This document shows, in pieces, positions 4,101 to 20,004 of a stretch of DNA of 25,363 nucleotides. Every line of letters begins with the position of its first letter. Position 1 is the first letter of the stretch. The translations under genes and the position numbers were made by a program. Below the pieces are notes generated by a model. That model ran no database searches, was not told the origin of the DNA, and saw only the letters and a program-made list of their open reading frames with translations. The stretch comes from a virus. The stretch is taken from the IMG/VR virus record IMGVR_UViG_3300020202_000206, positions 1 to 25,363 of that record. One strand, 5' to 3'.

Positions 4101-5834
4101 CTAGTCCTCCAGTAGCTCGAACGTCTCCTCGAACGGCCCAACCAGCGCACCGACTCCTGCGCCGATTGTCAACTCCCATTGTCGCCTAACGTACGGGCGC
4201 GAAACGATCCTTTTCACCAATTCCGGCCTATTTTGCTCCGCTGCCCCTAGGCTCAGTTGCAACGGTTTGGACCATGCACCGGGACGGTCCGCCCAGCGCA
4301 GTTCAATGAACGGCGGGTTAGTCGCGCCCAATGAACCGAGCCCCCGTTTCAACGGAACCCGGAGTGTCAACGTTTGCTTTGGCCCCTCGGTCCCGCGGCC
4401 CTGAAATCCGAGGCGGGCCCGGCCGATGATGGGTTGCCCAGCGACGGACACCGCGTCCATGTCGAGTTTCGCAATCTCGCCCGTGGAGAGCCCCACGAGG
4501 AACACGTTCTGCTCGGGCCAGAAGAACGAAGAAACAATGGGGTAGGCGGCATAATCACCAAGGGTGGTGTCGTAGCCCAGCAGGCGGAACCAGCGTTTCG
4601 CATCGATGTCGTAGGCGAACGCGACGCCGGCCGAGGGGAAGCGCCACACCAGAAGGCGGTAATTGTCGACCTTCCAGTAAAACCCGGTGCAGTCGTCCAC
4701 GTGGGGCAGGTTCTTGATGGTCCGGGTGATGTCCGGTCGGGAGATGGGGGTGGGGTCGTCGCGAACCGACGAGATGACGAACTCCCGATCCTCGGTCAGC
4801 CAGGCGAAGGCCCGCTTCTCGAGGAGGTTGATGATCGAATACCGGACGCAGCCCTGGTTGAGCGTGTATTGGGGCGCATATCCGACGTTGGCGTCAGGGG
4901 CGAAGATCTGGACCGTCCGCGCACCGAAGAGAAACACCTCGTCACTGTTCTCGTGGATGGCGTAGACGGCATCGGGCCGCGCCTCGGCCTCGGCGAAGTT
5001 CAGGGCGTCCCATGCGGTCGATGACGTGTGGTCCGTGCCGCTGGGCTCGGTCCACGAGAACTGCCCCGAGGCATCGAAGGCGTTGGCCACGGCCCGCTGG
5101 GCATTGGCGACGACGTGCGAGGCCCGCGGCCCGTTGCTCACCCTCGAGGATAGTCCGCTGCCCGTCCACGATTGCATCAGCCCGCCCCCGGCAACGAGAA
5201 GCGTGCTCTTCGTGGCGGCAAACACCGGAGGCTGGTTGCCGTCGAGCTTGGTGGTGGCGGTCCCGTTGGAGAGCGGCGAGATGAGCCCGGGGGCGGAGAT
5301 GGCCCACAGGCGGCGATCCTTGGTGACGTAGACAACCGCCCCCTTGAACTCGGTGATCCCGATGACCTCGCGCTCCGCAGCGTCGGCCACCTGATCCCAG
5401 TCCGTGCCGTCGTATTTGAAATGAAACGTCCCCGGCCCCGTCACCGCCGCCCCGGTGGCGAGCTGGAGAGGCGCATACCCGGAGGGCGCGCTGCTGGCGT
5501 TGTGGGCGAGCGTGGTAGCGCCGGGGAGCACCAGGGTCACGATGTCCCCCGATGCCCAGTCCGTGGTGCGGATGAAACTCACCGATCCCGGACCCGTGAT
5601 CGTGAACTTGTGCCACCCCTTGCCCACCAGGGCCACCTGGGACGCGGCCTCAACGGTGATGCTCGTAGAAGGGAACCACGACCAGGAGGACGTGCCGGGG
5701 GCAAGGCGGATGAACCCCGCGGCGTCCTTGAGGATGTTGGCGATCTGGGGGTTTCCCCCGGCCACCTCATCCACGGCATCGGATAGGCCGATTCCGAAGT
5801 CGAGCGGGGCCTTCTGAACGGCTAGTTCAGCCAT
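4101..5834 (-). CDS. P22 gp10-like tail accessory (packaged-DNA stabilization) protein
   Basis: A 577-aa protein. Residues about 155-560 read as a beta-propeller-like protein of the phage stabilization family (P22 gp10). The stretch around 285-345 is typical: Asn-Ser-Asp-Glu-Val-Phe-Leu-Phe-Gly-Ala-Arg-Thr, then a Gly-Cys-Val segment and Ala-Trp-Leu-Thr-Glu-Asp. In P22, gp10 joins the portal/gp4 adaptor to the tail needle and holds DNA in the filled head. Residues about 72-148 carry an extra beta domain ending Tyr-Asp-Gly-Thr-Asp-Trp that also forms the C-terminus of the neighbouring tailspike. It sits right after the Arg-Leu-Ala-Pro-Gly segment (43-47), where the family's normal N-terminal strands should continue, so it looks like an insertion. 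The start shares one base with the tailspike stop. The last 80 codons (about 4130-4380) appear less GC-rich than the rest. Confidence 0.8.
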   Translation of the reverse strand: MAELAVQKAPLDFGIGLSDAVDEVAGGNPQIANILKDAAGFIRLAPGTSSWSWFPSTSITVEAASQVALVGKGWHKFTITGPGSVSFIRTTDWASGDIVTLVLPGATTLAHNASSAPSGYAPLQLATGAAVTGPGTFHFKYDGTDWDQVADAAEREVIGITEFKGAVVYVTKDRRLWAISAPGLISPLSNGTATTKLDGNQPPVFAATKSTLLVAGGGLMQSWTGSGLSSRVSNGPRASHVVANAQRAVANAFDASGQFSWTEPSGTDHTSSTAWDALNFAEAEARPDAVYAIHENSDEVFLFGARTVQIFAPDANVGYAPQYTLNQGCVRYSIINLLEKRAFAWLTEDREFVISSVRDDPTPISRPDITRTIKNLPHVDDCTGFYWKVDNYRLLVWRFPSAGVAFAYDIDAKRWFRLLGYDTTLGDYAAYPIVSSFFWPEQNVFLVGLSTGEIAKLDMDAVSVAGQPIIGRARLGFQGRGTEGPKQTLTLRVPLKRGLGSLGATNPPFIELRWADRPGAWSKPLQLSLGAAEQNRPELVKRIVSRPYVRRQWELTIGAGVGALVGPFEETFELLED

Positions 5835-7369
5835 CAGAGCACGTTCCGCCCGTCTTCCTTCCAGTCGGTCCCGTCGTACATCAGCACCAGCGAGTCATTT
5901 GCCGAGGCAGTGAAGGCCGCGGTGAGCTGGATAGGGGCGTAGTTCGCCGCCGCGCCGCCCGTGTTGTCGTTGACCGTGGGCGTGCCGCTGAACTGAAGCG
6001 TGATCTTGTCGCCCGGTCTGCGCCCGAGGGTCTCGATGTGGTCGATGTTCGTGTTTCCGGTGACCACGAAGAACCGCCCGCCTCGAGGAGCGATGGCCGC
6101 CGCTGCGGTGACGTCGGCCCCCTTGCGCCCGCCCTCGAAGCTCCCCCAGAGCGACCCAGCCGCCAGATCCGTGATCTTGGCGGTGTCGATCTCGTTCCCG
6201 TACTCCCGGAACCCGATGGCCCCGGTTGCCTGGATGTTGATGTCGGTGGTGCAACTGGCGAAAGATGACCCGCGCATGGACACGGTGGAGCCGACAAAGC
6301 CCGAGGTGATGCTCAGACCCGTAGCCAGCGACTCGAAGTAACAGTCATCGATCGAGATACGCCCATCGGCGTCTGCGATCTTGATGCCCGTGCCGGCACC
6401 GGAGAAGTAGCAGGCCCGCACGCTATGGAACCGCGTGTTTGCGTCCTTGAAGTGAAGCCCGAACTGCCCCGACGCCGGGGAGAAGTAGACGCCGTTGATT
6501 TGGCCCCAGAAAGCGCCGCTTTCGACCCGAATCCCCTCGGCGAAGTTGCTGATGATGAGGTTCTGGAAGATGTCGTTATCGCCGGCCGTCTGGATGGCGT
6601 AGCCGGTCGATGCCGCGTTGGCTGTGAGCTGCAATTTCTCGATCTGGACGTTCCACCCGCTCCCGATGGTGAAGATGTTTGCGGTCGCGCTGGTGCTCTT
6701 GAGGATCGTGGCGTTGAACCCCGCGCCCTCGACTAGAAGCCCGTTGAAATCGATGGTCGCCAGGGCGGCATCGAGCATGTACGTTCCAGGCGGAACGATG
6801 AGCCGCCCGCCACCCGCCGACTTGATGGCGGCGATGGCACTGTTAAAAGCGCTGGTATCGATGGCCGAGCCGTTCCCGGTGGCCCCCCGGTCCTTGACCG
6901 AGAGACCGCGCTCGCTGATGACGACCCGTAGAGCCCGCTCCGTCCCGCCCGGGGCGTCCTGGTAGTTGCCGTCCTTGCCGCCGAGGCTCGCCCCCACGCG
7001 GTCAAGCGCCGTCGAGGCAGGCAGCTTGCCCCCGGCCCCTTGCGAGCCGTCGGTCTTGGTTCCGGTGAAGTAGGCGCTCTCCACCTCGACGCCGGCCGCG
7101 GCGGTGGCGGTGGCGCGCTCGACGGTGTACGTGGTCCCGTCGGAATCCTGGGCCACGACCTTGACCACGCCATCGGTAAACACCGTGGCCTGGCCCGCGG
7201 AGTTGGCTGTCACCGGCTGGGAGAGCGTGCTCGTCTTGTTGGCGTCGCCGTAAACGGCGGTCTGGGTCGTCGTCCCGGGGACGTAGAACCAGATCTTCGC
7301 GGCTGACATCGCCGTCCCGTCCGACTTGCGGAGCCCATCGAGCTGGAGCCAGGTAAGAGGGGAAGCCAT
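5834..7369 (-). CDS. Tailspike with pectate-lyase-like beta-helix
   Basis: A 511-aa protein in three parts. Residues about 20-90 (I-W-F-Y-V-P-G-T-T-T onward) match the short beta domain that many podovirus tail fibres use to bind the particle. Residues about 157-430 begin with the pectate-lyase-superfamily opening (V-K-D-R-G-A-T-G-N-G and, 20 residues on, G-G-G-R-L-I-V-P-P-G-T-Y) and continue as a right-handed parallel beta-helix, the fold of polysaccharide-cutting tailspikes. The last 80 residues are a beta domain shared with the gp10-like protein. The likely role is to bind, and perhaps cut, a host surface polysaccharide. Catalytic residues cannot be assigned by eye, so depolymerase activity is inference. 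It follows the adaptor gene by 3 bases. At 511 aa it is compact for a tailspike (P22 gp9 has about 670). Confidence 0.82.
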   Translation of the reverse strand: MASPLTWLQLDGLRKSDGTAMSAAKIWFYVPGTTTQTAVYGDANKTSTLSQPVTANSAGQATVFTDGVVKVVAQDSDGTTYTVERATATAAAGVEVESAYFTGTKTDGSQGAGGKLPASTALDRVGASLGGKDGNYQDAPGGTERALRVVISERGLSVKDRGATGNGSAIDTSAFNSAIAAIKSAGGGRLIVPPGTYMLDAALATIDFNGLLVEGAGFNATILKSTSATANIFTIGSGWNVQIEKLQLTANAASTGYAIQTAGDNDIFQNLIISNFAEGIRVESGAFWGQINGVYFSPASGQFGLHFKDANTRFHSVRACYFSGAGTGIKIADADGRISIDDCYFESLATGLSITSGFVGSTVSMRGSSFASCTTDINIQATGAIGFREYGNEIDTAKITDLAAGSLWGSFEGGRKGADVTAAAAIAPRGGRFFVVTGNTNIDHIETLGRRPGDKITLQFSGTPTVNDNTGGAAANYAPIQLTAAFTASANDSLVLMYDGTDWKEDGRNVL

Positions 7370-7372
7370 CGT

Positions 7373-8047
7373 CTACCTCAGGGTGAAGCGGAACCCGCCG
7401 CGCTCGGTGTTGTCCTTGAACATCGTTTGTTTGGCCTGCTCGGCCCGCCGCTCGAGGCGGTCGATCTTGTCGGCGCTCTTGCCGGCCTTCTCCGCCAGCC
7501 AGACGGCCCCGGCCAGCACCACGGCCTTGATGACACGCTGGTTGACGTCGGCGGTTGTCCCGGAGGCCAGGTCCCGGATCAACTTCGCCCGGACGTAGGT
7601 GATGCTCGAGACGGTCGAGTCAGGGACCGGGTGCAGAGTCATCACCACCGAGTCCTTGCGCTCGACGAGGGCACGCGTCGGGATGCCCTGCTGCGTTTTG
7701 TTCGAGATCCGCATGTACTCGTCGAGGGTCATGCGGTCCACCTCGTACGTCGAGGTTGAGCTGCTGGTCAGCGTGACGTATGCGGGAAACTCGACGTCGA
7801 TGGTGTCGGCGTCCACCGTGACCGTCGCCGTCCCGGCCGTGAGCGTCTTGGTGACCCGCTCCACCTGGCGCAGAAGCCGCCCGGCCGCCTGCCACTCCTT
7901 GAGCTCGGCGTTGAGCCAGTCGGCGAAGGATTGCACCTCCTCGCCGGTGGGGTCCTCGTAGTCACCGAGGACGCCCGCCGTCCGCATGGACAGTTTCGCC
8001 AGGCTGGTGAGGTCTGGGTTATAGCTGTAGCTCGAGGAGATGGCCAT
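7373..8047 (-). CDS. Head-to-tail adaptor, P22 gp4-like
   Basis: A 224-aa protein resembling the tail accessory factors that bind under the portal after packaging. It has a helical N-terminus (D-W-L-N-A-E-L-K-E-W around residue 45) and a mixed middle (L-D-E-Y-M-R-I-S-N-K, then R-A-L-V-E-R-K-D and T-L-H-P-V-P-D), the usual layout of gp4-type adaptors. A strand (S-S-I-T-Y-V-R-A-K-L-I-R-D-L) and C-terminal helices follow. In P22, gp4 is 166 aa, so this one is somewhat longer. It shares one base with the 591-aa gene stop and is followed by the tailspike and gp10-like genes, exactly the partners expected for this role. Confidence 0.78.
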   Translation of the reverse strand: MAISSSYSYNPDLTSLAKLSMRTAGVLGDYEDPTGEEVQSFADWLNAELKEWQAAGRLLRQVERVTKTLTAGTATVTVDADTIDVEFPAYVTLTSSSTSTYEVDRMTLDEYMRISNKTQQGIPTRALVERKDSVVMTLHPVPDSTVSSITYVRAKLIRDLASGTTADVNQRVIKAVVLAGAVWLAEKAGKSADKIDRLERRAEQAKQTMFKDNTERGGFRFTLR

Positions 8048-9822
8048 TAGTGATCCCTCACCACAAACACGCGGGGCTGCTCGCGATAGGCAAGGCCGAT
8101 GAGCGCCGCTTTGTAGGCGTCATAGAAGAACCCGGCCCACACGCGATCCCCGGACGGCTGGAAGGAAAACCCGCTGCTCCCGAGCAGGTTCAGGGCGGCG
8201 AAACGGTCATCCCCGCGCGTCCCGGCGAGACGCCGCCTGACCATCATCGACACCTTCCGCTTAGCCTCCGTGAAATTGGACGGCTCGCGGGACGAGAGCA
8301 GGGGCGCCAGCAGCCCCATGCACTCCCAGGCGTACCAAGTCGAGCTATCGGTGGTGTTGACGGACGGGGTGCCGACGGTGATGTCAACGTTGTCGGACCA
8401 CGTGAGCTTCGGGTTGTAGGTCCCTAGGTTGTTGTATTCCTCGTCGAGATCCGTTCCGTAGTACAGGATGTCGAAAGGCGTAGTCGTCGCGGTGATGGCG
8501 TGGTCCGCAGACGATGCCGTGGCCATGAAGAAATCCCAGATCGGGCTGATGACCGAGTCGAACCCGTAATAGGCGTTCCAGCCCCGGATCGCCTGGGCCC
8601 ACTCCGGGGGAAACACAGCACCGGCCACGAGCCACGTGCTGTTTTGCGTGACAGATGACCCGTTCGAGGTGGACGCCCGGTAGGTGCGGCTCATGTACGA
8701 CGTAGAAAGGCCCGTCTTGGTGGCCCCCGTGGTGTGGTCGTAAACGCCGTTCACCCAGAAGGCCCGCGCCTCGGCGGCCATGGCGCTGAGCGTGGCGGCG
8801 GTGGCGTCGGTCATCTCCCCGACCGCCGTCGTATCGCCGTAGGTCGTGTCCCCCTCGAGGGCCTTGGCCGCAGCGATGAACTCCAGCCCCCACAGGTCAT
8901 CTACGTTGATGGACTCGTCGGCCTCCCACGTCGAAGCACCCCCAGCCGCCTTGGTGAAGTTCCACGGCCACATCCCCGGGTGAAAGCGCGCCGATGTGCT
9001 GGTGCCACGGGAGACGAAATAGCGCCCGGTGAGCTTGCCGGGGCTCTGGCAACGCCGCAGGCACGTCAGGGCCATGCGGTAGCCTTGGCGGTACTTCTCA
9101 TCGCCGAGCGCCTGATACGCGCGCAGGAGCGCCAGGCCGCCGAGATAGACATCCTTGGTGTAGATGTTCGCCTCGTCCGAGGCACCGGACCACGAGAGGG
9201 TCAGCGAGTTGCTATAGGGCCAGAGGAAAGCCCCATACTCGAAGTCCGTTGACGCCGTGGCGCGGCCTAGCCACGTCGTGATCTGGGACGCCTGATACGG
9301 CCCTCCCGCCTGCCACGTGAGCAGCAGGTCGGCGAGGGCACGGAGCTTGGTTTTCGCGCGGTCGATCCACACCTTCGGTCGCCGGTCCTCGGCGATGACC
9401 GAATACAGGTACATGCAGGTAACCGCGGACGTCTCGACGAGGCTTTCCACGTCAACGCCGTTGTCATCCTCGATCTTCCCCGCGCCGCTCTTCATGTTGA
9501 CGAAACGCCGGGGAGGCACGCCCGGCCCGGCGTCGGCAATCGAGCTGCGAACGTCGCCGAAATCAGCGGTCAGGAGGTTGAGGATGCGCGCCTCGGCCTT
9601 CTGGTAGAGCTCGAGGTCTGGTGTCTCGCGCACCTGTTCGGCGGGACGCGGCCTGATGGCCGGGGGGATGGTCGGCCGTGGCCCAGCGGCGTCGAGCATG
9701 TCGTCGGTAAAGCCGCGCGCATCGTAGGGGCAGGCGTATTTCCCGTCCCCGATGGGAGCCATCTTGCGGAAGGGCCACGTGTCGTCTCCGCAGACGTCGC
9801 AGGCGCGGCGGTGGTCGCTCAT
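8047..9822 (-). CDS. Large alpha-helical virion-cluster protein with N-terminal Cys motif
   Basis: A 591-aa protein of no family I can name. The N-terminus has Cys8-x2-Cys11 and Cys31-x2-Asp34, like a zinc knuckle whose fourth ligand is Asp. A Pro-rich linker follows (about 45-65). From about 100 on it is built of helical hairpins with many Trp, Tyr and Phe residues (for example Y-L-G-G-L-A-L-L-R-A-Y-Q-A-L-G-D), recalling the alpha/alpha-toroid fold of several glycosidases and lyases. Trp and Asp/Glu are frequent around 180-320 and 400-470. It lies between the beta-helix proteins and the adaptor, overlapping the former by 4 bases, so it is probably a virion component, perhaps acting on sugars. 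That activity is conjecture; a purely structural role is equally possible. Confidence 0.75.
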   Translation of the reverse strand: MSDHRRACDVCGDDTWPFRKMAPIGDGKYACPYDARGFTDDMLDAAGPRPTIPPAIRPRPAEQVRETPDLELYQKAEARILNLLTADFGDVRSSIADAGPGVPPRRFVNMKSGAGKIEDDNGVDVESLVETSAVTCMYLYSVIAEDRRPKVWIDRAKTKLRALADLLLTWQAGGPYQASQITTWLGRATASTDFEYGAFLWPYSNSLTLSWSGASDEANIYTKDVYLGGLALLRAYQALGDEKYRQGYRMALTCLRRCQSPGKLTGRYFVSRGTSTSARFHPGMWPWNFTKAAGGASTWEADESINVDDLWGLEFIAAAKALEGDTTYGDTTAVGEMTDATAATLSAMAAEARAFWVNGVYDHTTGATKTGLSTSYMSRTYRASTSNGSSVTQNSTWLVAGAVFPPEWAQAIRGWNAYYGFDSVISPIWDFFMATASSADHAITATTTPFDILYYGTDLDEEYNNLGTYNPKLTWSDNVDITVGTPSVNTTDSSTWYAWECMGLLAPLLSSREPSNFTEAKRKVSMMVRRRLAGTRGDDRFAALNLLGSSGFSFQPSGDRVWAGFFYDAYKAALIGLAYREQPRVFVVRDH

Positions 9823-10628
9823 TCAGTCCACTTCCACCCGCTCGTGGCGTCGATGGTGTGCGAGCCGCCGATGTAGCCCTTGATCCCGCTGATAGAGGCC
9901 CCGGCAAACGAGTAGTTCTGAAGGGTCAGATCCCGGAACCGGAAGCGGTCGGCCGTGGCCGTGTCCACCTGGAGCGCATACCCCGACGTCCACCCGTAGC
10001 TCCCGCCGTCGAAGGTGCAGCTCTCAACGAGGAGATTGGTCGACGCGCCGGTGGCCCTCACGCCCGTGCGGCTCGTGCCGGAGACGGACGCCGTCACCTT
10101 GAACGTCGAGCCGCGGAACGTGGCGTTTGCCACGCCGTTGACCAGGACCAGATCCGTCGCCTCGTTGGCCCCGCCCTCGAGGAGGCAGTCGCGCATCTCG
10201 AAGCCCGACCCCGTGATCGCCAGCTTGCGGGTGATGGACGCGCTGGCCGCAGGGAAGTAGCAATTCTCGATGCGGACCTCTGTCCCAGAGACGGTGATGA
10301 TCCCGGAGTTGGTGAACTGGGCCCGCGACGTCCCCGACCCCAGCGAAATGAGCGTGACCCCAGCCGTCGACCACGTGTAGGCCGCTACCGTCTCCCGGTG
10401 GGTAGCGAGGCACACGATGAGATTGGAGTTGTTCGAGGTGCAGACGGAGATGGCCCCCGAGGCGCCGAAAACCGTTGCCTTGGGGGTCTTCTCCTCCGTG
10501 CCGGCATTGGAGTCGCTGCCGGTGACGGAGTCTACGAATATGACCGAGTCCGAGGAGATGTACGGGTACCCGACCAGAAGGTCAGGCCCCGTACTCGCGA
10601 ACCCGCTGTTTCGAACCAGTAGAGCCAC
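9819..10628 (-). CDS. Beta-helix virion-cluster protein (269 aa)
   Basis: A 269-aa protein with a GTG start at 10628, chosen because AAGGAG lies six bases upstream. It opens with a short N-terminal part, then residues about 65-105 (L-I-V-C-L-A-T-H-R-E-T-V, then G-V-T-L-I-S-L-G-S-G) match the first coil of phage right-handed beta-helix proteins. The rest is short strands with N-C-x-F and D-C-L-L turns typical of parallel beta-helices. It resembles its neighbour at 10673-11623 over this region, so the two are probably paralogues. Such proteins sit next to the coat gene in many phages and may be head fibres or surface decorations; the role is inferred. The stop overlaps the next gene by four bases. 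Confidence 0.75.
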   Translation of the reverse strand: MALLVRNSGFASTGPDLLVGYPYISSDSVIFVDSVTGSDSNAGTEEKTPKATVFGASGAISVCTSNNSNLIVCLATHRETVAAYTWSTAGVTLISLGSGTSRAQFTNSGIITVSGTEVRIENCYFPAASASITRKLAITGSGFEMRDCLLEGGANEATDLVLVNGVANATFRGSTFKVTASVSGTSRTGVRATGASTNLLVESCTFDGGSYGWTSGYALQVDTATADRFRFRDLTLQNYSFAGASISGIKGYIGGSHTIDATSGWKWTE

Positions 10629-10635
10629 GCTTTTC

Positions 10636-10666
10636 TCCTTGGGCCATGGCCCGAGGGCGTGGCCCT
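10636..10666 (-). promoter_or_regulatory. Ribosome site with adjacent palindrome
   Basis: AAGGAG (minus strand, 10636-10641) serves the GTG start at 10628. It touches a perfect 12-bp palindrome, GGGCCATGGCCC (10641-10652), and GGGCCA can instead pair with TGGCCC at 10660-10665. A hairpin here could cover the ribosome site and limit translation of the 269-aa protein. This is only a structural possibility read from the bases. Confidence 0.35.
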
Positions 10667-10672
10667 AGCTGA

Positions 10673-11623
10673 CTAGGCCGAGACGGTTCCGACGACCTCG
10701 GTCCCGGTCTCGCCCGCCGTGTTGGTGACGGTCGGCCGGTGGAAGGTCATGATCCCGGTGCTGGTGAGCCACGGGGTCAGAGACGAGGTATCCAGGTAGG
10801 CGAAGTGCTCGTTTCGGCTCACGCCCGAGACGCCCGCCAGACCCGTAACCGCGCAAGTAGAGAGCGCCTTGCGGTTGATGTACGTGTTGTTCTCGAGCCA
10901 GATGTTGAGGCTGGCAGTGGTCGCGAACCGCACGATTCCAACACCGACCGCCGAGGTAGCGCCCTCGATGACGTTGTTGAACATCCGCAGGCCATCGGCT
11001 CCCACGATCTGAAGGAACGTCGTGCACTCCGCAGCCGTCGCGCCGATGGCGTGATTGCCGGAGTACTCGAAGTAGTCCGCGCCGGCCGTGGTGGTGATGC
11101 CGATGGTCACCTTGTTGTTCGCGTCGGTCCCGAAGAACTGGCGCGTGTTGAGGATCTTGCAGCGAGCCGCCGAGACCGTGATCGGAGCAGCGACGTTGAC
11201 CGATCCCGTGGTCGGCTCCATCTGCAAGATGATGCCGCGGTTGGGGCCGCCGTCGATGACGAAGTCGGCCGCGTCCATGAGGGCCGTGGTCGTCGCCGTG
11301 GCCCAGGTGATCGTGGCCGGAGGACCGAAGCCGGGGCCGCGAATGGTAACGCCCGTCTTGGTGCCCAGGTTGGACCACGCATCAGCCCCGCTGATGGTCT
11401 CGGTGTGACCGGGGAGGAGCTGGACGACGTCACCACGTCCCGAGCGACAGAGGTCGAGAGCGGCCTGGATGGTGGTCCGGCCGTCCTCGGCGTACCACGC
11501 CGGGGCATCGCTGAGGTTGCCCGGCCCCGAGTGATGGACCGGGATGATCTTCGCGCCGGTTCGCGCGAAAACAAACCCCGGAATCTCCACCGGGCCGGAG
11601 GGAGTGAGCACTGAGGGAACCAT
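10673..11623 (-). CDS. Beta-helix virion-cluster protein (316 aa)
   Basis: A 316-aa protein, first gene after the coat protein, with GGAGG five bases before its ATG. Residues about 48-105 hold the recognisable phage beta-helix opening: an 'I-Q-A-A-L-D-L-C' helix, then V-V-Q-L-L-P-G-H-T-E-T-I, then G-V-T-I-R-G-P-G-F-G. After this come repeated short strands with N-N-x-I-E and N-N-T-Y turns, as in parallel right-handed beta-helices. The family is common beside capsid genes and may decorate the head or bind the cell surface; no catalytic residues can be named. The 269-aa neighbour shares the same opening, suggesting duplication and divergence. Confidence 0.78.
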   Translation of the reverse strand: MVPSVLTPSGPVEIPGFVFARTGAKIIPVHHSGPGNLSDAPAWYAEDGRTTIQAALDLCRSGRGDVVQLLPGHTETISGADAWSNLGTKTGVTIRGPGFGPPATITWATATTTALMDAADFVIDGGPNRGIILQMEPTTGSVNVAAPITVSAARCKILNTRQFFGTDANNKVTIGITTTAGADYFEYSGNHAIGATAAECTTFLQIVGADGLRMFNNVIEGATSAVGVGIVRFATTASLNIWLENNTYINRKALSTCAVTGLAGVSGVSRNEHFAYLDTSSLTPWLTSTGIMTFHRPTVTNTAGETGTEVVGTVSA

Positions 11624-11632
11624 CGGTGCCTC

Positions 11633-12538
11633 CTACGCCAGCGAGAAGAAGTACGTGCGCCAGTTGCTCCACGACACCAGGAAGCGAGCCGAACCCACGT
11701 GAACCTCGGACTCGTTCCGGATCTCGTCCGTCTTGCGGAACCGCGGCTTACGCCGCCAGATGAACCGAGCGCCGCGGGGAGCGTCCGTGTGGGCGCCCCA
11801 GTTCGTGGTGCTGGCCATGTGCGGGATCGGGGCGTACGACGAGGACACCCCGCGCGGCTTGAGGGAGTTGATGGCGTTGTTCGCCGTGTCGTCCCTCATG
11901 TCCGACTTGGTGATCTCGAGGAACCGCGCGTGCAGGTTCTCCGGCCCGATCCACTTCTTGACCCGCGTGCCGGCGATGTAGCCGTTAGAGCCGGCCATCT
12001 TCACGCACGAAGTAACGATCAGGTTGAGCGCCGTGTTGCTGGGGGTGAGCGCCGGGCTCAGGATGTTCGAGACCGTCGCGCCGCCGCGGATCGGGTGAGC
12101 CGAGTTGGCCAGGGTCACGCCGTCGCCGCCGTTGACGCCGGTGGTAGCAGCGTCGTCGATGATACCGACGGCGTAGTAATCCTGGGTCTGGATGCAGGTG
12201 CGGCCCAGCATGCGGACGGCGTCGTACGCCTCCTCGTAGACCGCGTCCTCCTTGATCTCGTCGGGGATCACGAGACGCTTGGCGAACTTGAGCGGACGCC
12301 ACCGGGTGACGTACCCCTCGTTGTACTCGTCCATGTCGATCTCGGCGCCCTCGTCGGTCTCGGTCCACAGACCGGGATCGACCCACTCCACGTCATCGTA
12401 CCAGCGCTTGTCGGTCGAGCCCTCCTCGAGGTAGCCCTTCCAGTAGGGTTCGTTCTTCTCGATGACCGACGTCCAGATCGCGCCGAGAGTCGCGTGGAAT
12501 ACGTCGGGCGCCTGACCTTCAGAAATGCTCTGTGCCAT
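11633..12538 (-). CDS. Major capsid protein (HK97-fold type)
   Basis: A 301-aa protein, which I take as the coat protein. It lies after the scaffold and a decoration candidate, begins without a cleaved prodomain, and has the mix expected of HK97-fold coats. There is an N-terminal arm (about 1-50), an E-loop-like acidic region (W-T-E-T-D-E-G-A-E-I-D-M-D, about 58-70), a spine helix (E-D-A-V-Y-E-E-A-Y-D-A-V-R-M-L-G-R, about 97-113) and a long A-domain. It ends in the typical beta segment (S-E-V-H-V-G-S-A-R-F-L-V-S-W-S-N-W). GGGAG precedes the ATG. At 301 aa it is small compared with P22 coat (430 aa), nearer the size of many HK97-like coats. The assignment rests on gene order plus these features. 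Confidence 0.82.
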   Translation of the reverse strand: MAQSISEGQAPDVFHATLGAIWTSVIEKNEPYWKGYLEEGSTDKRWYDDVEWVDPGLWTETDEGAEIDMDEYNEGYVTRWRPLKFAKRLVIPDEIKEDAVYEEAYDAVRMLGRTCIQTQDYYAVGIIDDAATTGVNGGDGVTLANSAHPIRGGATVSNILSPALTPSNTALNLIVTSCVKMAGSNGYIAGTRVKKWIGPENLHARFLEITKSDMRDDTANNAINSLKPRGVSSSYAPIPHMASTTNWGAHTDAPRGARFIWRRKPRFRKTDEIRNESEVHVGSARFLVSWSNWRTYFFSLA

Positions 12539-12552
12539 GGTCCGTTACTCCC

Positions 12553-13137
12553 TCAGATGCCCGCGTTGTCCACGAACGCGTGGAAGCCCTCGTTGATCAT
12601 CACCTTGACGTGCAGGTTCGCACCCGTGTAGGTGCGGCCCGGGACGCGCCGGATCTCGAGAATCCGGAACTGCGCAGCTCCGGCAACCGGGGTGCCGTCC
12701 ACCTGATGGCCCGAGCAGCCGTACACCGTGCTGCCCGCGCCGGCCAGGAGGTCCATGTTAGACCCCACGGCGGCCTCCCACTCGGCGGCGGTGTCCGTCG
12801 AGGTGTTTGTCGCCGAGGTGGTCCAGAACTCCTGGTTGGGATCGTCGTAGATCCACACCCAGGTCTGCGTGGACACCAGGTTGCCGGTGTAGGTCGTGCT
12901 GGCCGGCAGGTACGGCGAGCGCACCCGCTTGCCGCCCGTGGTGTACTCGAACTCCTTGGCAACGCCGATGAGGTCGGTGTCACCGGCCGCCGCAACGTCC
13001 ACGAGACCCGTGGTGGCGATCTTGAGAACGTCACCGCGGAAAATCGCAGTGCTGTTGTTGCTCACGACGTTGTAGCGCCGGGCCCGGGAGCGGAGCTCCT
13101 GGTCCGCGTGGAAACCGCCTTGCAGTAGATTGGGCAT
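12553..13137 (-). CDS. Putative capsid decoration / cement protein
   Basis: A 194-aa protein, beta-rich and without helices of note. It has a middle T-x-T-W-V-W-I-Y-D-D-P-N-Q-E-F (about 92-106), which reads like a beta-strand pair, and a C-terminal R-I-L-E-I-R-R-V-P-G-R segment. It ends 14 bases before the coat gene and starts just after the 144-aa gene stop. Small beta proteins directly upstream of the coat gene are often head-decoration or cement proteins in phages that use a separate scaffold. I do not recognise the exact family, so the role is inferred from position and fold. Confidence 0.65.
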   Translation of the reverse strand: MPNLLQGGFHADQELRSRARRYNVVSNNSTAIFRGDVLKIATTGLVDVAAAGDTDLIGVAKEFEYTTGGKRVRSPYLPASTTYTGNLVSTQTWVWIYDDPNQEFWTTSATNTSTDTAAEWEAAVGSNMDLLAGAGSTVYGCSGHQVDGTPVAGAAQFRILEIRRVPGRTYTGANLHVKVMINEGFHAFVDNAGI

Positions 13138-13143
13138 CTCTAG

Positions 13144-13578
13144 CTACCTCCGAGCCATCTGTCGCGGGCCGCTGCCCGGGTTGTTGACGAAAACGTCCCC
13201 GTTGGCTTTCTTGAGGAATGCCTCACGGGTCTTGCGATTCGCGGCGCGCTCACCGGCGAGCACTCGCTCATGCCGGCCCTTGTCGCGCACCATCAGAACG
13301 TGATCGGCCATCCGGATCTGCTCGCCCTTCTGGAACTGAAGCCCAGAGAGCAGCTCGATCCCGTCCTCACCGGCGCGCACCTCGCGCCAGCCGCGGCCCT
13401 TGTAGGTGTTGACGTCCGAGAGATGCGGCCACACCGTCACGAGGTCGGAGGGGACGGACTCCTCGTCCACCTTGAACTCGAACGTGGGATCGCCGTCGAT
13501 CTCGGCCTTCTCCGACGGGTCGAAGCGCTCCAGCACCTCGATCGCTTCCGTCTTCTCGCTCTCGGTCTTCTTGGCCAT
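13144..13578 (-). CDS. Hypothetical protein of the capsid cluster
   Basis: A 144-aa protein starting at 13578, where GGAG lies five bases before the ATG. The frame is open further upstream to 13683 but that part is Arg-rich and lies in the leader, so the shorter start is preferred. Residues 1-30 are highly charged. Residues about 35-110 are beta-like, with the stretch F-Q-K-G-E-Q-I-R-M-A-D-H-V-L-M-V-R-D resembling a small barrel, followed by a basic helix (about 100-125). No family recognised. It is the first leftward gene after the promoter island at 13681-13761, so it heads the coat transcript. Confidence 0.65.
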   Translation of the reverse strand: MAKKTESEKTEAIEVLERFDPSEKAEIDGDPTFEFKVDEESVPSDLVTVWPHLSDVNTYKGRGWREVRAGEDGIELLSGLQFQKGEQIRMADHVLMVRDKGRHERVLAGERAANRKTREAFLKKANGDVFVNNPGSGPRQMARR

Positions 13579-13761: not shown

Positions 13762-14208
13762 ATGAACAACACCCTCAAACGAGCGGCCCCCGAAACTGGC
13801 GCCCCGGCGCGCGAGGTAGCGTTTTTCTACCGGGAGATCCGGCAGGCGCTCAATCAAGCGTATTTCGAGCGCTTCGAAGTCACGACGACTCTCACCGCTG
13901 CTGCAACGACGATATGGCAATACGCCATGTCTCCGTCGAGCGCCTGGAGCATCGACGCCTCCATCACGGGCATCGCCACCGACGGATCTCTCGCTGCCTA
14001 CCGGCGCATGGTCCGCACGCGGCGGGTTGGCTCTGCCGCTCCAACGGTCATCAGCACGGACACGCTGGGGACGGATTACGAGGACGTCGCCGCGTGGGCT
14101 ATCGCCTTCGACATCTCCTCGAACAACGTCAGGCTACGTGTGACGGCAGACGCCACCCGCACCGTGACGTGGCAGGCGATGATCCGGATCGACGAGGTCC
14201 GGTACTAG
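13762..14208 (+). CDS. Beta-sandwich virion-type protein (moron) opposite the capsid genes
   Basis: A 148-aa protein, ATG at 13762; a TTG at 13738 in the same frame would overlap the palindrome and is less likely. Neither has a clear ribosome site. The N-terminal 40 residues are charged and helical. Residues about 45-148 (A-T-D-G-S-L-A-A-Y-R-R, T-D-Y-E-D-V-A-A-W-A-I-A-F-D, N-N-V-R-L-R-V-T, W-Q-A-M-I-R-I-D-E-V) match the compact beta module often found at the ends of phage tail-fibre and virion proteins. Here it stands alone as a gene, on the strand opposite the virion block, with its own promoter island. Its stop overlaps the scaffold stop by four bases. It may be a head or tail decoration acquired on its own; function unknown. 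Confidence 0.72.
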   Translation: MNNTLKRAAPETGAPAREVAFFYREIRQALNQAYFERFEVTTTLTAAATTIWQYAMSPSSAWSIDASITGIATDGSLAAYRRMVRTRRVGSAAPTVISTDTLGTDYEDVAAWAIAFDISSNNVRLRVTADATRTVTWQAMIRIDEVRY

Positions 14209-14211
14209 TAC
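14202..14211. other. Palindromic shared stop of two convergent genes
   Basis: The palindrome GTACTAGTAC encodes the last residue (Tyr) and TAG stop of the rightward 148-aa gene and, on the other strand, the last residue (Tyr) and TAG stop of the scaffold gene. The two coding regions overlap by four bases. Palindromy makes the same ending readable on both strands. Confidence 0.85.
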
Positions 14212-15191
14212 TCGCCGCGCTTCATACGCTCCATCTGCGCGGCCACCTCGGCGGGAGAAACGCCGGAGCCCTTGAGCACTGCCAGTTGATCCGGGCCGAA
14301 GGTGATCGAGCCGTTGCTGTGACCGTTGCTCCGGCCGCCGCCACCGGCACCCTCGAAGATGCCGCGCTCACGTCCCGACGACGAGCGGAACCCCTCGGGA
14401 GCCCACCCCTTCTGCGTGTAGATGTACTGACACGCCTCGCGGAGCAGGCCCAGCGACTCCTGGCCGCCGTTCCGGGCGACGAGGTAGTTATAGTAAGCCT
14501 TCGCCTCGGCCTTGGCGGCGTGGTCCTGCTCGAGCCGCGGGAACTCCGTGGCCAGCACGGTACGCGCCGCCACGACGTCAGGGGAGGGGACGTTTTCCTG
14601 CTGCTGCCGGAGCCGCTCGTTGATGAGCTTTTCCGCCTCGGTGCGGATGAGAATCCGCTCCCGCTTCTCCGATAGCTGCTGAAACTGCTGTGCGAGGGCC
14701 TGGCGCTGCTCTGCCGGGAGGTCGGCATTGGAGGCCATCACCGCCAGGTCGTTGAGCTGCTTGGAGATGGTGGTTAGCTCCTGGCTCGCCGGGTCCTGCT
14801 GCTCGGGCTGGCGACCGAAGCCGGTTTTCTCCAGCGCCTCCCAGCGTCCCATCATGGTCGCTAGCTGCTGCTCGAGAGCGGCCACCTTCGTCTGATACTC
14901 CTTGGTGCGCTCGGTGACCGCTTTCTCGATGTAGCCCTTCCATGAGCTGGGCTTGGTGGGTTTCTGCCGCTGGGGCGCGATGTCTCCGGGGTCACGCTGC
15001 CGCGGCTGCGTCTGCATCTCGCGCGGCTGCTGCTCGGCCATGGGCTCCGCAGAGCCCAGCGTGCTCCCGCCCGACGGCTCATCGTCGCCGGCTCCGACCT
15101 CCAGATCTTCGCGGTCGTCCTCCTGGCCGATCTTGACGGTCACGGGAGAAAGGTCATCTCCGCTCTCTACGGGCTTGTCTGCACGGGCCAT
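14205..15191 (-). CDS. Capsid scaffolding protein
   Basis: A 328-aa protein between portal and coat genes, the usual place for a scaffold. The N-terminal 80 residues are acidic and disordered, rich in Glu, Asp, Gln and Pro. Residues about 82-200 are strongly helical and coiled-coil-like, rich in Gln, Glu, Leu and Arg. The C-terminus (about 300-328) is a short basic helix (V-A-A-Q-M-E-R-M-K-R), the part that in P22 scaffold binds the coat. There is a Gly/Asn/Ser-rich linker around 280-295. No protease motif is seen. It would direct coat assembly around the portal and leave before packaging. The assignment rests on order, composition and the basic C-terminal helix. Confidence 0.8.
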   Translation of the reverse strand: MARADKPVESGDDLSPVTVKIGQEDDREDLEVGAGDDEPSGGSTLGSAEPMAEQQPREMQTQPRQRDPGDIAPQRQKPTKPSSWKGYIEKAVTERTKEYQTKVAALEQQLATMMGRWEALEKTGFGRQPEQQDPASQELTTISKQLNDLAVMASNADLPAEQRQALAQQFQQLSEKRERILIRTEAEKLINERLRQQQENVPSPDVVAARTVLATEFPRLEQDHAAKAEAKAYYNYLVARNGGQESLGLLREACQYIYTQKGWAPEGFRSSSGRERGIFEGAGGGGRSNGHSNGSITFGPDQLAVLKGSGVSPAEVAAQMERMKRGEY

Positions 15192-15194
15192 GGT

Positions 15195-15824
15195 CTACCT
15201 CATCCTTTCGGCTGCGCGCCGAGCGGCGGCGGCCTCGTGTGGGTTGCTGCTTCGCTCTGCCAGAGCTTCCAGCTTCTCCTTGCGGGACGTGACCGCGGGG
15301 AGGAGCTTGTCAGGGGTGGACACCTTGGCGAGCTTGTGGCGGCCATCGGTGTCCTGGACGATCTTGAGCTTCCCCTCGCGCATCTGCCGGGCGAGGTCGT
15401 CGGAGCCGATGATGTCCTTGTCCTTGATCATGAGGATCTTGTTGTGCCGCATGCTCTCCGGGGTGTGGTCGTCGGCCTCCCAGCCGGCGAACCGCCCGAA
15501 GATCACGATGTGCCCCTCCTCGATGCCGTTGGAGGCCAGCGTGTCCCGCGCCCGTGGGCCCATGGCCAGCAAGATCCCCTTTACGTGCGGGCTCTGGTGG
15601 TCCGACGGGATGACGAGCCCGCCCGCCGAGAGTTGCAGGGGCGGAAGTCGCCACACCACCACGTTGTTGTCGATGGGCTGAAACGTGACCTTGGGGATGC
15701 CCCAGTCTCGACACCTGTAGTCGAGCAGCGATTCGCCTTTTTTCTGCTTGGTGGGGACGTGCAGCTCCACGCCCGCGGCCTTGGCCGCTCTCACCAGCGC
15801 CTTGCTCGGCTTGTCACTCTTCAT
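15195..15824 (-). CDS. GroES-like co-chaperonin
   Basis: A 209-aa protein starting at the ATG at 15824. Residues about 50-140 follow the GroES chaperonin-10 fold in order. A first strand pair (N-V-V-V-W-R-L) leads to a loop, S-A-G-G-L-V-I-P, matching the GroEL-binding mobile loop of E. coli GroES (S-A-G-G-I-V-L-T). Next come K-G-I-L-L-A-M-G-P, then G-H-I-V-I-F-G-R-F and K-I-L-M-I-K-D-K-D-I-I (GroES has G-D-I-V-I-F and V-L-I-M-S-E-S-D-I-L). A basic N-terminal extension (1-40) and a charged helical tail (145-209) make it about twice GroES length. Phage co-chaperonins such as T4 gp31 replace GroES on host GroEL so that a coat protein can fold. Its place just before the scaffold suggests the same client. 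The stop lies three bases from the scaffold start. Confidence 0.8.
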   Translation of the reverse strand: MKSDKPSKALVRAAKAAGVELHVPTKQKKGESLLDYRCRDWGIPKVTFQPIDNNVVVWRLPPLQLSAGGLVIPSDHQSPHVKGILLAMGPRARDTLASNGIEEGHIVIFGRFAGWEADDHTPESMRHNKILMIKDKDIIGSDDLARQMREGKLKIVQDTDGRHKLAKVSTPDKLLPAVTSRKEKLEALAERSSNPHEAAAARRAAERMR

Positions 15825-16023
15825 CTTTCGCCTTTCCTCCGTTGAGAATTGCCCAGGCACGTTGCAGGCCGCGGTAGTACCCCGCCCGGTTCCTGATGTC
15901 GGAGAGCTCGCCGACGCCAGCGGAAACGAGGATGTCCTTGGCTGCGCGTTCGATCTCGACCTTGATCTCGTGCAGCTTCTTGCGCGTGTGCTCGTCGTCG
16001 AGCCAATCCCGTTGTGCGTCCAT
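15814..16023 (-). CDS. Small charged helical protein, unknown
   Basis: A 69-aa protein, almost entirely helical and strongly charged (W-L-D-D-E-H-T-R-K-K-L-H-E-I-K-V-E-I-E-R at residues 7-26). It has no recognised domain. Its start shares one base with the stop of the 82-aa gene and its end overlaps the co-chaperonin start by 11 bases, so it is part of a coupled block between portal and scaffold. Confidence 0.6.
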   Translation of the reverse strand: MDAQRDWLDDEHTRKKLHEIKVEIERAAKDILVSAGVGELSDIRNRAGYYRGLQRAWAILNGGKAKDEE

Positions 16024-16271
16024 CAGAGCACCGGCACCGGAGGAGGACCGCCGTCCATGCCCACGAGCTCGCGGAAGTGGCGCAAGTAAACCTGCGCGCA
16101 GAACTTCTCGCCGCGCTTGAACGCGAACTCAGGCCCCGAAGGAACATCCTGGGCTGCGTCCTGCTCGAGCAGCCCCACGAACATCACCACGGCGCCCCTC
16201 CACGCCTCCGGGTTGGCCGCGATGCGCTCGCGGTACTCCTTCATGTGCTCGTAATACTGCTTGGTCATCAC
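16023..16271 (-). CDS. Small protein after the portal, unknown
   Basis: An 82-aa protein starting at 16271, overlapping the portal stop by four bases (ATGA); Met2 is an equally possible start. The N-terminal 20 residues are charged and Tyr-rich, then a short hydrophobic segment (G-A-V-V-M-F-V-G-L-L, about residues 26-35) and a C-terminal Pro-rich tail. No family recognised. It lies in the block of small genes between portal and scaffold. Confidence 0.6.
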   Translation of the reverse strand: MMTKQYYEHMKEYRERIAANPEAWRGAVVMFVGLLEQDAAQDVPSGPEFAFKRGEKFCAQVYLRHFRELVGMDGGPPPVPVL

Positions 16272-18523
16272 TGGACCTCGGGCGGCATGCCCTCCGCCCC
16301 GGTTACTGGCATGGCCCGTGGCAGTCCCGCCTCCTGCTGTATGGCCTTGCCCTTCTTGTACGCTTGGGCCATGTGCCCGCGCTCGTGACGGTCGAACAGT
16401 TGCTTCCCCGTTGGACTGAGCGCCTTGTATTGGTCGGTGGCCTTGTACTCCGCCATGTCGGCGAGGTGGACGATGTCGTCATCGTCCGGAAGAACCGGGT
16501 GATCCTGCTCGTTCATGAAGCCCGCGATCTCGTCCACCTGGCTCATCGGGGACGGCGGAGGCGGGGGCGGGATGTTGTCGGGGAGGCGCGACGCGAGGTC
16601 TTGCGCCTTGAGGGCCCGCAGCGCTTTCTTGAGCGCCGCGAGTTGCAGGTTCGGATCGCCCGCCGCTAGCTGGTCGCCGCGGATGAGGGCATACGCCTCG
16701 AGCGCGCTCTGTCCGATGCCGGGGTCGACCTCGAGCCTGACATCGGCCTCGAAGGTGATGTCATAGTCCGTATCGTAGTCGGCCCGCGTGATCTGAACCT
16801 GCTTGCGTGCCTGGGCCCCGGTCTGCGGGTGCGGCTCGGTGACAAAGAAATACTCGGTGTCCGGGAGGAACATCGAGTTTAGCCGCGCATAGAGCTTGTA
16901 CTCGTACGCCAGCGGGATGAGGAACTGCTCGACCGCCGCCGTGGTAGCAGTCGAGCCCTGGTACGCCCTGGCCCTCGCCGCCGTGGCCGTCTCGTGCGAC
17001 GGCCCGGGGACGCCGCTCTGCTGGTCAGACGACGACGTGACCGCCTGGGCCTCCTGGTCAAGTTTCTCGATGTAGCCGGAGAGGTTGCCCTTCGGCCGCT
17101 CGAACGGCAGCGGCAAAACGCCGTCCTTGAGTTGCTGGGAGGTGACCCCCTCGAGGTGGTTGAACTTCCCATACTCGAGCTCGAAGGTGCCCTTCTCGAC
17201 GGCCACGTCATCCGAGACGAGCCCGCCCTGAATGTTGGCCATGCGATGGGCGATGATGTCCTCTCCCAAGAGGTCGTTAATCACCTCGTTGAGCGGGCCG
17301 ACGAAGGCCCAGGCGCCGAGTCCGTAGATGCCCTCGGGGTTGGGCATGAAACGGTAGTGAATGATCGAGAACACCGGCTCGACGGCCGGAGGCGCGATCT
17401 CGCCGGCCGGGTTCGGGGGCGGCTGCTGCCCGGCCATGGCCGCGCGGGCTGCGATCTCGCGCCAGTTCTGAATCTGGATGGCCTTGAGCTTCGATTCGTT
17501 CTCGAAGCGGATGCGGTCCACCCGGATCTCACGCTCCATGATGACCAGGCGGAGAACCTTCTTGGTCGACTGCTCCACCCAGACGGCCACCCGTCGCGGA
17601 ACGTCCTTGTCAGGGTTCCAGCCCGGGATCTCGGGCAGCTCACACCACATGTGCTGCTGCACGATCTGGTACGAGTCGCGCTTGCCCGTGGAATTGTCGG
17701 CGGTCTGCCCCTGGAACTCCGCCACGACCTCCTGCACGGCGTTCTTGTCCGTGTCCTTGACCGGGCTGGCCTTGATCTCGGAGTCCTTGTCGAAGATGTC
17801 GAGGTTCTCGAACCACTTGCGCATGCCGAGCCGCTTGATCCGGTGCTTCGGCATCCGCATCAGGCGCGAGATCCGCTCCACCCGGCGCATATCCGGAGAA
17901 GAATCCTTCTCCGAGTAGGGGAGGATCAGGTCCCCGCAGCTCATGTAGTCGATGCTCTTTTTGTTCTCGAGCACGTCCCACTCGACGGCCCGGAACATCG
18001 ACCCGAAAAGGACCCACTGCATCGCCGAGTCAGCCATGGTCGGCGCCCAGTCGGGGTGCTTCGCGCGCTTCTCCCAGGCGATGTGCTGGGCAAGGCGCAA
18101 AGCGCGCTCGATGTCATCGTCGGCCGTCGGAACCGCGATGGGCTCCGTCTGGAGGACGACGGAAATCACCCGGGAGTAGGTGCGGTTCACGATCTTGGCC
18201 AGCGTCGGATGCACCGGACGGGGAGAGCCCTTCGCCGGGCCCTTGGTGAACGTGCCCCCGCGGCCCAGGTACATCTCGAGCGCGCTGGCCAGACACTCGC
18301 GGTATCCCTCGCCCGACTTCTCGTCCTCATCCTTCTTGCGGATGACCCTCTTTCCCAGCTCCTCGAGGAAATGCCTTCCCTCCTGCGTGGTCATCAGCGC
18401 CGGCACGAGGTTGACGTTTTCGAGCGTGCCCTGCTCCGGGGGAACGATGGGGCTTGGCGCTCCCTCGTCCTGGGTCATGGGCTCGGTCTGCTGTTCCGGG
18501 GTGATGGGCGGCTGTGTTTCCAT
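16268..18523 (-). CDS. Portal protein
   Basis: A 751-aa protein starting at 18523. A longer open frame to 18682 is rejected because it runs inside the terminase gene and its extra 53 residues are Arg/Gln-rich. Size is near P22 portal (725 aa). The long mixed alpha/beta body includes A-M-Q-W-V-L-F-G-S-M-F-R-A-V-E-W-D, L-N-E-V-I-N-D-L-L-G-E-D-I-I-A-H-R and a Gln/Ser/Thr-rich stretch followed by A-R-A-R-A-Y-Q-G-S-T-A-T-T-A-A-V-E-Q-F, all consistent with podovirus portals. The C-terminus is charged with a Pro-rich linker (P-P-P-P-P-P-S-P). Twelve copies form the vertex ring through which the terminase pumps DNA. It follows the large terminase by five bases. Confidence 0.85.
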   Translation of the reverse strand: METQPPITPEQQTEPMTQDEGAPSPIVPPEQGTLENVNLVPALMTTQEGRHFLEELGKRVIRKKDEDEKSGEGYRECLASALEMYLGRGGTFTKGPAKGSPRPVHPTLAKIVNRTYSRVISVVLQTEPIAVPTADDDIERALRLAQHIAWEKRAKHPDWAPTMADSAMQWVLFGSMFRAVEWDVLENKKSIDYMSCGDLILPYSEKDSSPDMRRVERISRLMRMPKHRIKRLGMRKWFENLDIFDKDSEIKASPVKDTDKNAVQEVVAEFQGQTADNSTGKRDSYQIVQQHMWCELPEIPGWNPDKDVPRRVAVWVEQSTKKVLRLVIMEREIRVDRIRFENESKLKAIQIQNWREIAARAAMAGQQPPPNPAGEIAPPAVEPVFSIIHYRFMPNPEGIYGLGAWAFVGPLNEVINDLLGEDIIAHRMANIQGGLVSDDVAVEKGTFELEYGKFNHLEGVTSQQLKDGVLPLPFERPKGNLSGYIEKLDQEAQAVTSSSDQQSGVPGPSHETATAARARAYQGSTATTAAVEQFLIPLAYEYKLYARLNSMFLPDTEYFFVTEPHPQTGAQARKQVQITRADYDTDYDITFEADVRLEVDPGIGQSALEAYALIRGDQLAAGDPNLQLAALKKALRALKAQDLASRLPDNIPPPPPPSPMSQVDEIAGFMNEQDHPVLPDDDDIVHLADMAEYKATDQYKALSPTGKQLFDRHERGHMAQAYKKGKAIQQEAGLPRAMPVTGAEGMPPEVQ

Positions 18524-18528
18524 GGGGT

Positions 18529-20004
18529 CTATCCGATCTCGGCGTAACGCTTCTTCTTGAAGCGGCTGGCGTAGTCCTCTTCCTCGTCGTAGTAGTCGCT
18601 GTCTTTGACGACCTCTAGCTTGGGCTTGAGCGGGTTGGAGCCGCAGCCGTACATGGTGTCGTCTAAAACGTGGTCCTCGCACCCCTTGGGCACGTCCTCG
18701 GCGTTGTTCGGGTCGCGAGGCAGGATCGGGAGAATCCGGATCGGGGCCTCACACCGCTTCATCCACCGGATCATCCCCTTCTTGATGGGCTTGCCGCTTT
18801 CGTCCTGGCCCACCGTCACGCTCTGGGACAGTCGCCGCATGACCTCGGCGATGCCGTTAACCCGGTCCTTGATGCTCGGAATCCAGGCCACCCCGTGCCG
18901 CCTGAACTCCTCGGCGATGGACGGACCGGATGCGCTCGTCGGATTGCGCGCCCAGCAGGCCGCATCGAGCGGCGACCGGCGAAGCATCGAGCGCTTCTCC
19001 TCGAGGTCCCAGTCGCCGAAATGCTTTTCGATCTCGCGGATGCGCCCGGCGATACGGTCCGCCGTGAGGTCTTTGACGTAGAGGTTGTAATAGGCCGTCA
19101 TCGCCCCATCCGAGTCGACGTACCACCACGTAATGGACGTGTAGGCGTTGATGCCGAAGTCCCCCGAGCGGAACCGCCAGCAGTTGGGCGGAATCGGGTG
19201 ATTCGGGACGACGTGGAGATCCTGATCCCAGAACTCGGAGAGCAGTCCGCCCGGCGAGTAATGCCAGTTGCCCTCGAAAAGCGCCTTGAAGATGTGCGGC
19301 TTGTTCTTCCTGAGCGACGCCTCGTAGCGCCCGTCCTTGGCGAGTGACGGGTTGTCCGAGAGATACGCCTGTATGAACACCTGATCCTGGTCGATGTACC
19401 GGCCGTCGGAGATGCGGGTCCGCACTCGCACCGTCTGACCGGGCGGAGCCACGTCCACGAACCGACGCCGCACCCAGATGAGCCCCGGACCTACCGGGTT
19501 TGACCCCCAGCGAATGTTTTCAAACGGCTTGTGCGCGGGGTCCGGAGAGCGGATGCGGGAGTCAATCTGGTCGAACTGCTCCTCCTCAAACTCCGTGAGC
19601 TCGTCCATGTAGACGCCCTGGAACTCGAACGAGTAGTACTTTAGGTAATCCTGAGACTTCTCCATCGCGCCGAACATGGCGTGAAGCCCACACTCGAACG
19701 TCCATACGTGGTCCGTGGCGTTCCACTTGGCGTGTTTGTCGATGAGCGTGAAGCTGCGCAGGCTGTTGGCGATGGCCTGCTTGAGGTTCGGCATCACGCG
19801 CCGGAAATAGCAGGTCCAGGCTGACGACTTCCGGATCTCGCCTCTCCGGTAGCGCTGGTCCTCGAAGTCGAGCAGGTAGCAGAAGTGATAGAGCAGGGCC
19901 GCCGACTTGCCCGAGCCCGCCGAGCCTCCATACCCGACCGTGCGGGCCGGGTGCCGCATGAAAAGCTCTTGCTTGCCCGTGTGGGGCGTGAAGATGAAAT
20001 TCAC
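18529..20004 (-). CDS. terL: Terminase large subunit (ATPase and nuclease)
   Basis: A 491-aa protein that packages DNA by ATP hydrolysis and cuts the concatemer. The ATPase half has a Walker A, G-G-S-A-G-S-G-K-S at residues 26-34, a Walker B, V-Y-M-D-E-L with Asp134 and Glu135, and a coupling S-N-P at 168-170. The nuclease half has Asp282 in S-G-D-F-G, Asp347 in P-L-D-A-A-C-W and an Asp pair at 448-449 (H-V-L-D-D-T-M-Y), a plausible metal-binding triad of the RNase H-like nuclease. Its length is typical. The start overlaps the 67-aa gene by four bases; the portal follows after five. By gene order and P22-like genes headful packaging is likely, but the mode is not visible in the sequence. Confidence 0.93.
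   Translation of the reverse strand: MNFIFTPHTGKQELFMRHPARTVGYGGSAGSGKSAALLYHFCYLLDFEDQRYRRGEIRKSSAWTCYFRRVMPNLKQAIANSLRSFTLIDKHAKWNATDHVWTFECGLHAMFGAMEKSQDYLKYYSFEFQGVYMDELTEFEEEQFDQIDSRIRSPDPAHKPFENIRWGSNPVGPGLIWVRRRFVDVAPPGQTVRVRTRISDGRYIDQDQVFIQAYLSDNPSLAKDGRYEASLRKNKPHIFKALFEGNWHYSPGGLLSEFWDQDLHVVPNHPIPPNCWRFRSGDFGINAYTSITWWYVDSDGAMTAYYNLYVKDLTADRIAGRIREIEKHFGDWDLEEKRSMLRRSPLDAACWARNPTSASGPSIAEEFRRHGVAWIPSIKDRVNGIAEVMRRLSQSVTVGQDESGKPIKKGMIRWMKRCEAPIRILPILPRDPNNAEDVPKGCEDHVLDDTMYGCGSNPLKPKLEVVKDSDYYDEEEDYASRFKKKRYAEIG

Follow-up and report, generated by a model that had tools for sequence, protein, structure and literature searches.

Why should a phage keep a co-chaperonin gene of its own in the middle of its head genes? 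The textbook phage lid for GroEL, T4 gp31, is explained by an oversized coat protein, and the same question is raised here by a locus with a much smaller coat. The locus lies in a 25,363-nt stretch of viral DNA (IMG/VR record IMGVR_UViG_3300020202_000206, positions 1 to 25,363; hereafter the window), in which an earlier note, made from the letters alone, had described a GroES-like protein of 209 aa with a kept GroEL-contact loop and flanking extensions. The gene and its parts are as follows.

15195..15824, minus strand: Cpn10/GroES-like co-chaperonin gene, 209 aa, ATG at 15824 and stop at 15195 (PF00166, PHROG_3188, fold match)
15684..15824, minus strand: N-terminal extension, residues 1-47, outside the Pfam match
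15405..15683, minus strand: Cpn10 core, residues 48-140 (Pfam match)
15606..15629, minus strand: GroEL-contact (mobile) loop SAGGLVIP, residues 66-73, placed by alignment; its low pLDDT fits a mobile loop
15531..15557, minus strand: predicted helix, residues 90-98, at the place of the GroES roof hairpin (AlphaFold model; conserved branch motif A-x-D-x-L-x-S-N-G)
15198..15404, minus strand: C-terminal extension, residues 141-209, the first part common to the branch described below

The open reading frame is preceded by a GGAGG site, the end of the 69-aa gene before it overlaps its ATG, and its codon-position GC (0.64/0.43/0.87) is consistent with the minus strand. Residues 48-140 matched the Pfam Cpn10 profile PF00166 with 32.2 bits against a curated cut-off of 21.1 bits (E 1.1e-7, profile positions 2-91 of 93), and the protein matched PHROG_3188 'co-chaperonin GroES' as well (E 6.8e-9). 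Several NCBIfam GroES models also matched it, each under its own cut-off, and a PDB sequence search returned GroES chains headed by the bacterial GroES 3nx6 (E 9.6e-5). Searched directly with the window protein, neither IMG/VR nor 84,980 species genomes yielded a relative, and the named phages yielded two matches only, both insignificant; its identity to phage Cpn10s is 14-26%. Judged by these sequence matches, the window protein is a member of the Cpn10/GroES family, and the resemblance is more than chance.

An AlphaFold2 model built with 52 aligned viral relatives had an overall pLDDT of 76.6, which rose above 90 for the core strands and was close to 70 for the loop. By Foldseek its top 19 PDB matches were all Cpn10 proteins (E from 1.1e-5), T4 gp31 (1g31) standing at rank 18 (E 1.3e-3), and its top viral structure matches were GroES proteins as well; the model was guided by Cpn10 relatives in the alignment, so that the fold match counts as support and not as independent proof. 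The GroES-like identity put forward by the earlier note is thereby confirmed, by a PF00166 score above the cut-off and by the Cpn10 fold of the model. Neither of the two outcomes that the note had named as refuting it was obtained: a Cpn10 profile match was found in Pfam, PHROG_3188 and the PDB sequences, and a Cpn10 barrel in the predicted structure and its Foldseek matches. The extensions that it had called foreign to GroES were borne out too, both ends running beyond the Cpn10 core: N-terminal extensions are common in the phage relatives, with unrelated sequences, and the predicted C-terminal additions comprise a helix, a beta hairpin and a helical hairpin. Residues 184-208 (15201-15275, minus strand) resemble, at a score under the family cut-off (21.0 against 23.9 bits), the first half of DUF2786, and these last 25 residues are absent from the other branch members.

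The loop SAGGLVIP aligns with SAGGIVLT of E. coli GroES, as had been claimed for it, and places L, V and I at E. coli GroES positions 25-27. Of 68 relatives, 67 retain the first hydrophobic contact and about 65 the third, and the two glycines of the loop are kept in 63 and 65, respectively. Replacement of position 25 or 27 by alanine lowers the GroEL affinity of E. coli GroES more than 1000-fold, so that these contacts are needed for binding there (PMC5575113). The kept loop speaks for retained GroEL binding by the window protein.

On the minus strand the gene order runs terminase, portal, two small genes, Cpn10, putative scaffold, a 144-aa gene, a 194-aa gene, coat and tail genes.

18529..20004, minus strand: terminase large subunit (PF04466, PHROGs)
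16268..18523, minus strand: portal, ATG at 18523 (E 1.7e-44 against a profile of the relatives' portals; PHROG portal)
15814..16023, minus strand: small gene, 69 aa, directly upstream of the co-chaperonin gene and overlapping its start
14205..15191, minus strand: putative scaffold, 328 aa (position, size, coiled-coil-like composition)
13144..13578, minus strand: 144-aa gene in a conserved slot, ATG at 13578 (position only)
12553..13137, minus strand: 194-aa head-module protein (E 4.6e-32 against a profile of the relatives' proteins at this place)
11633..12538, minus strand: major coat protein, 301 aa, HK97 fold (E 4.7e-38 against the relatives' coats; AlphaFold pLDDT 83.9; Foldseek)
7373-8047: SU10-type adaptor, among the tail genes after the coat
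4101-5834: head closure Hc3 (PHROGs), among the tail genes after the coat

The portal, the 194-aa gene and the coat are homologous to annotated genes of the relatives and stand in the same order. Neither the putative scaffold, compared with the relatives' proteins at the same place, nor the 144-aa gene, compared with the relatives' profiles, gave a significant sequence match. The position 'between portal and scaffold' given in the earlier note therefore holds for the portal and the slot, the scaffold being putative by position, size and composition. The label 'P22-like phage' did not survive: the 33.6 kDa coat has an HK97 fold, its best Foldseek matches were the T5, phiXacJX1, HK97 and Mu coats, and no P22 coat was among the 50 matches listed; the label fits the tail parts at most. 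A 148-aa ORF (13762-14208, plus strand) interrupts the head operon in inverted orientation, separating the putative scaffold from the 144-aa gene, and the sequence at its end (RLRVTADATRTVTWQAMIRIDEVRY) resembles that of a structural protein; the coat-linked relatives have no inverted gene between these two slots.

The conserved order in the relatives is portal, Cpn10, putative scaffold, two small genes and HK97-fold coat, and the question whether Cpn10 and coat type go together was answered in both directions. From the coat side, a GroES, either annotated or recognisable as such, occupies this slot in the named phages that share the coat, ct7ZZ929 alone excepted, and in the IMG/VR contigs found by the coat only, with at least 2.6 kb of upstream DNA, a Cpn10 lies 1.9-2.7 kb before the coat in 53/53. 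From the other side, all 52 contigs found by the Cpn10 only and with enough downstream DNA have the coat 2.0-2.3 kb after it; each of the two contig sets consists of the 80 top matches from a single search. In whole phage records PF00166 was found in 14/14 coat-sharing phages versus 0/13 terminase relatives with other coats (Fisher p about 5e-8), counts that are non-independent given the shared ancestry of all the phages and that include both Synechococcus phage MinM2 and Planktothrix phage Pra-JY27 (both 65,014 bp), probably the same phage. The two-way linkage to the coat type supports a role in head assembly, and it may partly reflect the common descent of one head module. Two apparent Cpn10-less exceptions were rejected, namely L002, the contig with the nearest terminase, in which a drifted homologue sits in the slot, and ct7ZZ929 (L017), which has its Cpn10 elsewhere in the genome. 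The Cpn10 gene of ct7ZZ929 (L121:2200-2664, MW202601.1) is distant from the coat and adjoins a single-strand-binding-protein gene; it was either moved or acquired separately. GroEL (Cpn60) was found in none of the 18 phage records examined, so the partner must be the host's.

The slot protein of L002 (L002:7860-8528) is related to the window protein (31% identity over 95 aa, E 1e-11), and further searches added L101, L102, L103, L116, L117, L119 and L120, the last two of which look identical in the alignment. The branch thus comprises eight contigs with seven distinct sequences beyond the window, and the portal is found upstream in 8/8 loci and the coat downstream in all six that reach far enough. 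None of the eight proteins had a significant match in Pfam or PHROGs; in NCBIfam the top match of the L002 protein was a GroES model (E 0.038), and the other six distinct sequences had no GroES match. Two motifs run through the branch. One, A-[LM]-D-[NT]-L-R-S-N-G, occupies the roof-hairpin position and reads A-R-D-T-L-A-S-N-G in the window; the other, R-D-G-D-[IL]-x-[GA]-S, opens the C-terminal extension and reads K-D-K-D-I-I-G-S in the window. A profile of four branch members without the window protein was collinear with phage Cpn10s (hhalign E 3.9e-5, probability 71%), and with the window protein added the same profile matched GroES in the PDB (E 0.0016). The window protein belongs to a separate branch of the capsid-linked family, which has gained a C-terminal extension and in which, according to the model, the roof hairpin has given way to a helix. 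Most branch relatives have other residues instead of the loop GG, and M, K or A occupies their third contact, which places the GroEL binding of those members in doubt. As far as its sequence tells, the window protein is the most GroES-like member. The branch might also be a Cpn10 that is abandoning GroEL for a dedicated role in head assembly while staying in its slot, and the window protein the intermediate in which the origin is still visible; we consider this speculative reading rather unlikely.

Known systems differ from the window protein in instructive ways. Its closest counterparts are the capsid-linked GroES genes of HTVC023P and HTVC027P (Pelagibacter), CRP-901 (Roseobacter), vB_Af_QDWS535 (Alcaligenes), Pra-JY27 (Planktothrix) and DSL-LC04, with which it has in common the slot between portal and putative scaffold, the coat family and the kept loop; the 13 core genes of HTVC023P-type pelagiphages include co-chaperonin GroES (PMC9599517). 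These proteins have 113-155 aa and a W-C motif in the roof region, the tryptophan being present in 65/68 relatives, whereas the 209-aa window protein has neither the motif nor this tryptophan and differs further by the predicted helix in the roof region and the C-terminal extension. Bacterial GroES is alike in fold, loop and core sequence, but in the window protein the roof hairpin appears replaced and both ends are extended. Among phage-coded Cpn10s linked to coat folding, i.e. T4 gp31 and RB49 CocO, gp31 matches the model in fold with 12% identity in the structural alignment, and it too is without the GroES roof loops (PMC6318259), where the window protein has its predicted helix. Together with GroEL, gp31 folds the T4 coat gp23 (PMC3012670, PMC6318259); GroES is unable to replace gp31, whereas gp31 and CocO are able to replace GroES (PMC3012670). 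The usual explanation for gp31 is the size of gp23, which with about 56 kDa slightly exceeds what the GroEL-GroES cage can take (PMC6318259). The window coat of 33.6 kDa should fit the ordinary cage, so that the T4 rationale does not carry over. A soil viral chaperonin paper was set aside as a precedent, as it concerns GroEL and not Cpn10 (PMC8390657).

Taken together, the window gene would encode a dedicated phage co-chaperonin that caps host GroEL so that head proteins fold, a reading to which we give a probability of roughly three in four. The Cpn10 domains would probably assemble into a ring that uses the SAGGLVIP loop to cap host GroEL, in the manner of GroES and T4 gp31. Late in infection, phage head proteins could then fold inside the closed chamber; the client would probably be the coat, or else some other protein of the head module whose size allows it to fit. 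The earlier note had suggested that the coat depends on an altered chaperonin chamber, and of this the head-assembly part gains from the two-way coat linkage, but a need of the coat in particular, or of an altered chamber, does not, since an ordinary cage should suffice by size. Enlargement of the cage for the coat was accordingly rejected as the purpose of the lid, and a private lid must have some other reason, e.g. that it is specific for the coat or makes the phage independent of host GroES.

Among the alternatives, the one that survives best holds that the Cpn10 barrel has been repurposed for head assembly or for the virion, as a portal ring, scaffold partner or decoration, and has lost its work with GroEL. 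The fixed place inside the head module would suit it, and so would the added extensions and the eroding loop contacts of the branch, where the third is M, K or A, alanine at this contact abolishing GroES-GroEL binding in E. coli (PMC5575113); the lost GG and contacts, as read from the alignment, weaken the GroEL claim for the branch members. SAGG-LVI is nevertheless kept in the window protein, and a loop so strongly kept in 68 low-identity relatives would make little sense without GroEL. A further point against it comes from Pseudoalteromonas phage B8b, whose GroES is a phage Cpn10 within a structural module (its predicted structure is BFVD rank 29 of the model) and is missing from the virion proteomics list that includes its neighbours (PMC4294664), although this gene sits among tail genes and the B8b head module is different (prohead-peptidase coat). 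We regard repurposing as doubtful.

A co-chaperonin for host or general phage folding, i.e. stress support in infection with the linkage as inherited gene order, seems very improbable. The ability of gp31 and CocO to stand in for GroES in general folding (PMC3012670) and the ct7ZZ929 gene beside a single-strand-binding-protein gene, away from the coat, are compatible with it, but it is at odds with the presence of Cpn10 in all 14 coat-sharing phages and in none of the 13 terminase relatives with other coats, and with a distance to the coat that is fixed in 53 of 53 contigs. Finally, a chance resemblance, for which the low identity to phage Cpn10s and the branch members lacking a Pfam Cpn10 match could be cited, is scarcely credible in the face of a match over 90 of the 93 profile positions, the fold match, a slot shared with annotated GroES genes and the collinear window-free branch profile. 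The dedicated co-chaperonin thus remains the preferred reading.

Phage GroES genes are already annotated and their slot is readable from annotated genomes; no description of the two-way coat linkage or of the drifted branch was found in the open-licence papers searched. What emerges is a lineage whose coat is small (about 300 aa) and which keeps its own lid in a fixed place, spanning phages of Pelagibacter, Roseobacter, Caulobacter, Alcaligenes, cyanobacteria and many uncultivated hosts. Such a lineage allows a test of whether phage lids serve purposes other than cage size, e.g. specificity, speed or independence from host GroES. Co-chaperonins are also under-counted in phage genomes, those in the slot of eight contigs having been missed by Pfam and PHROGs.

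Beyond the coat, the minus strand of the window encodes large proteins (5834-11623; 316, 269, 591 and 511 aa), probably fibres or spikes, and the gene directly after the L002 coat (L002:11793-12749) is similar to window positions 10673-11623.
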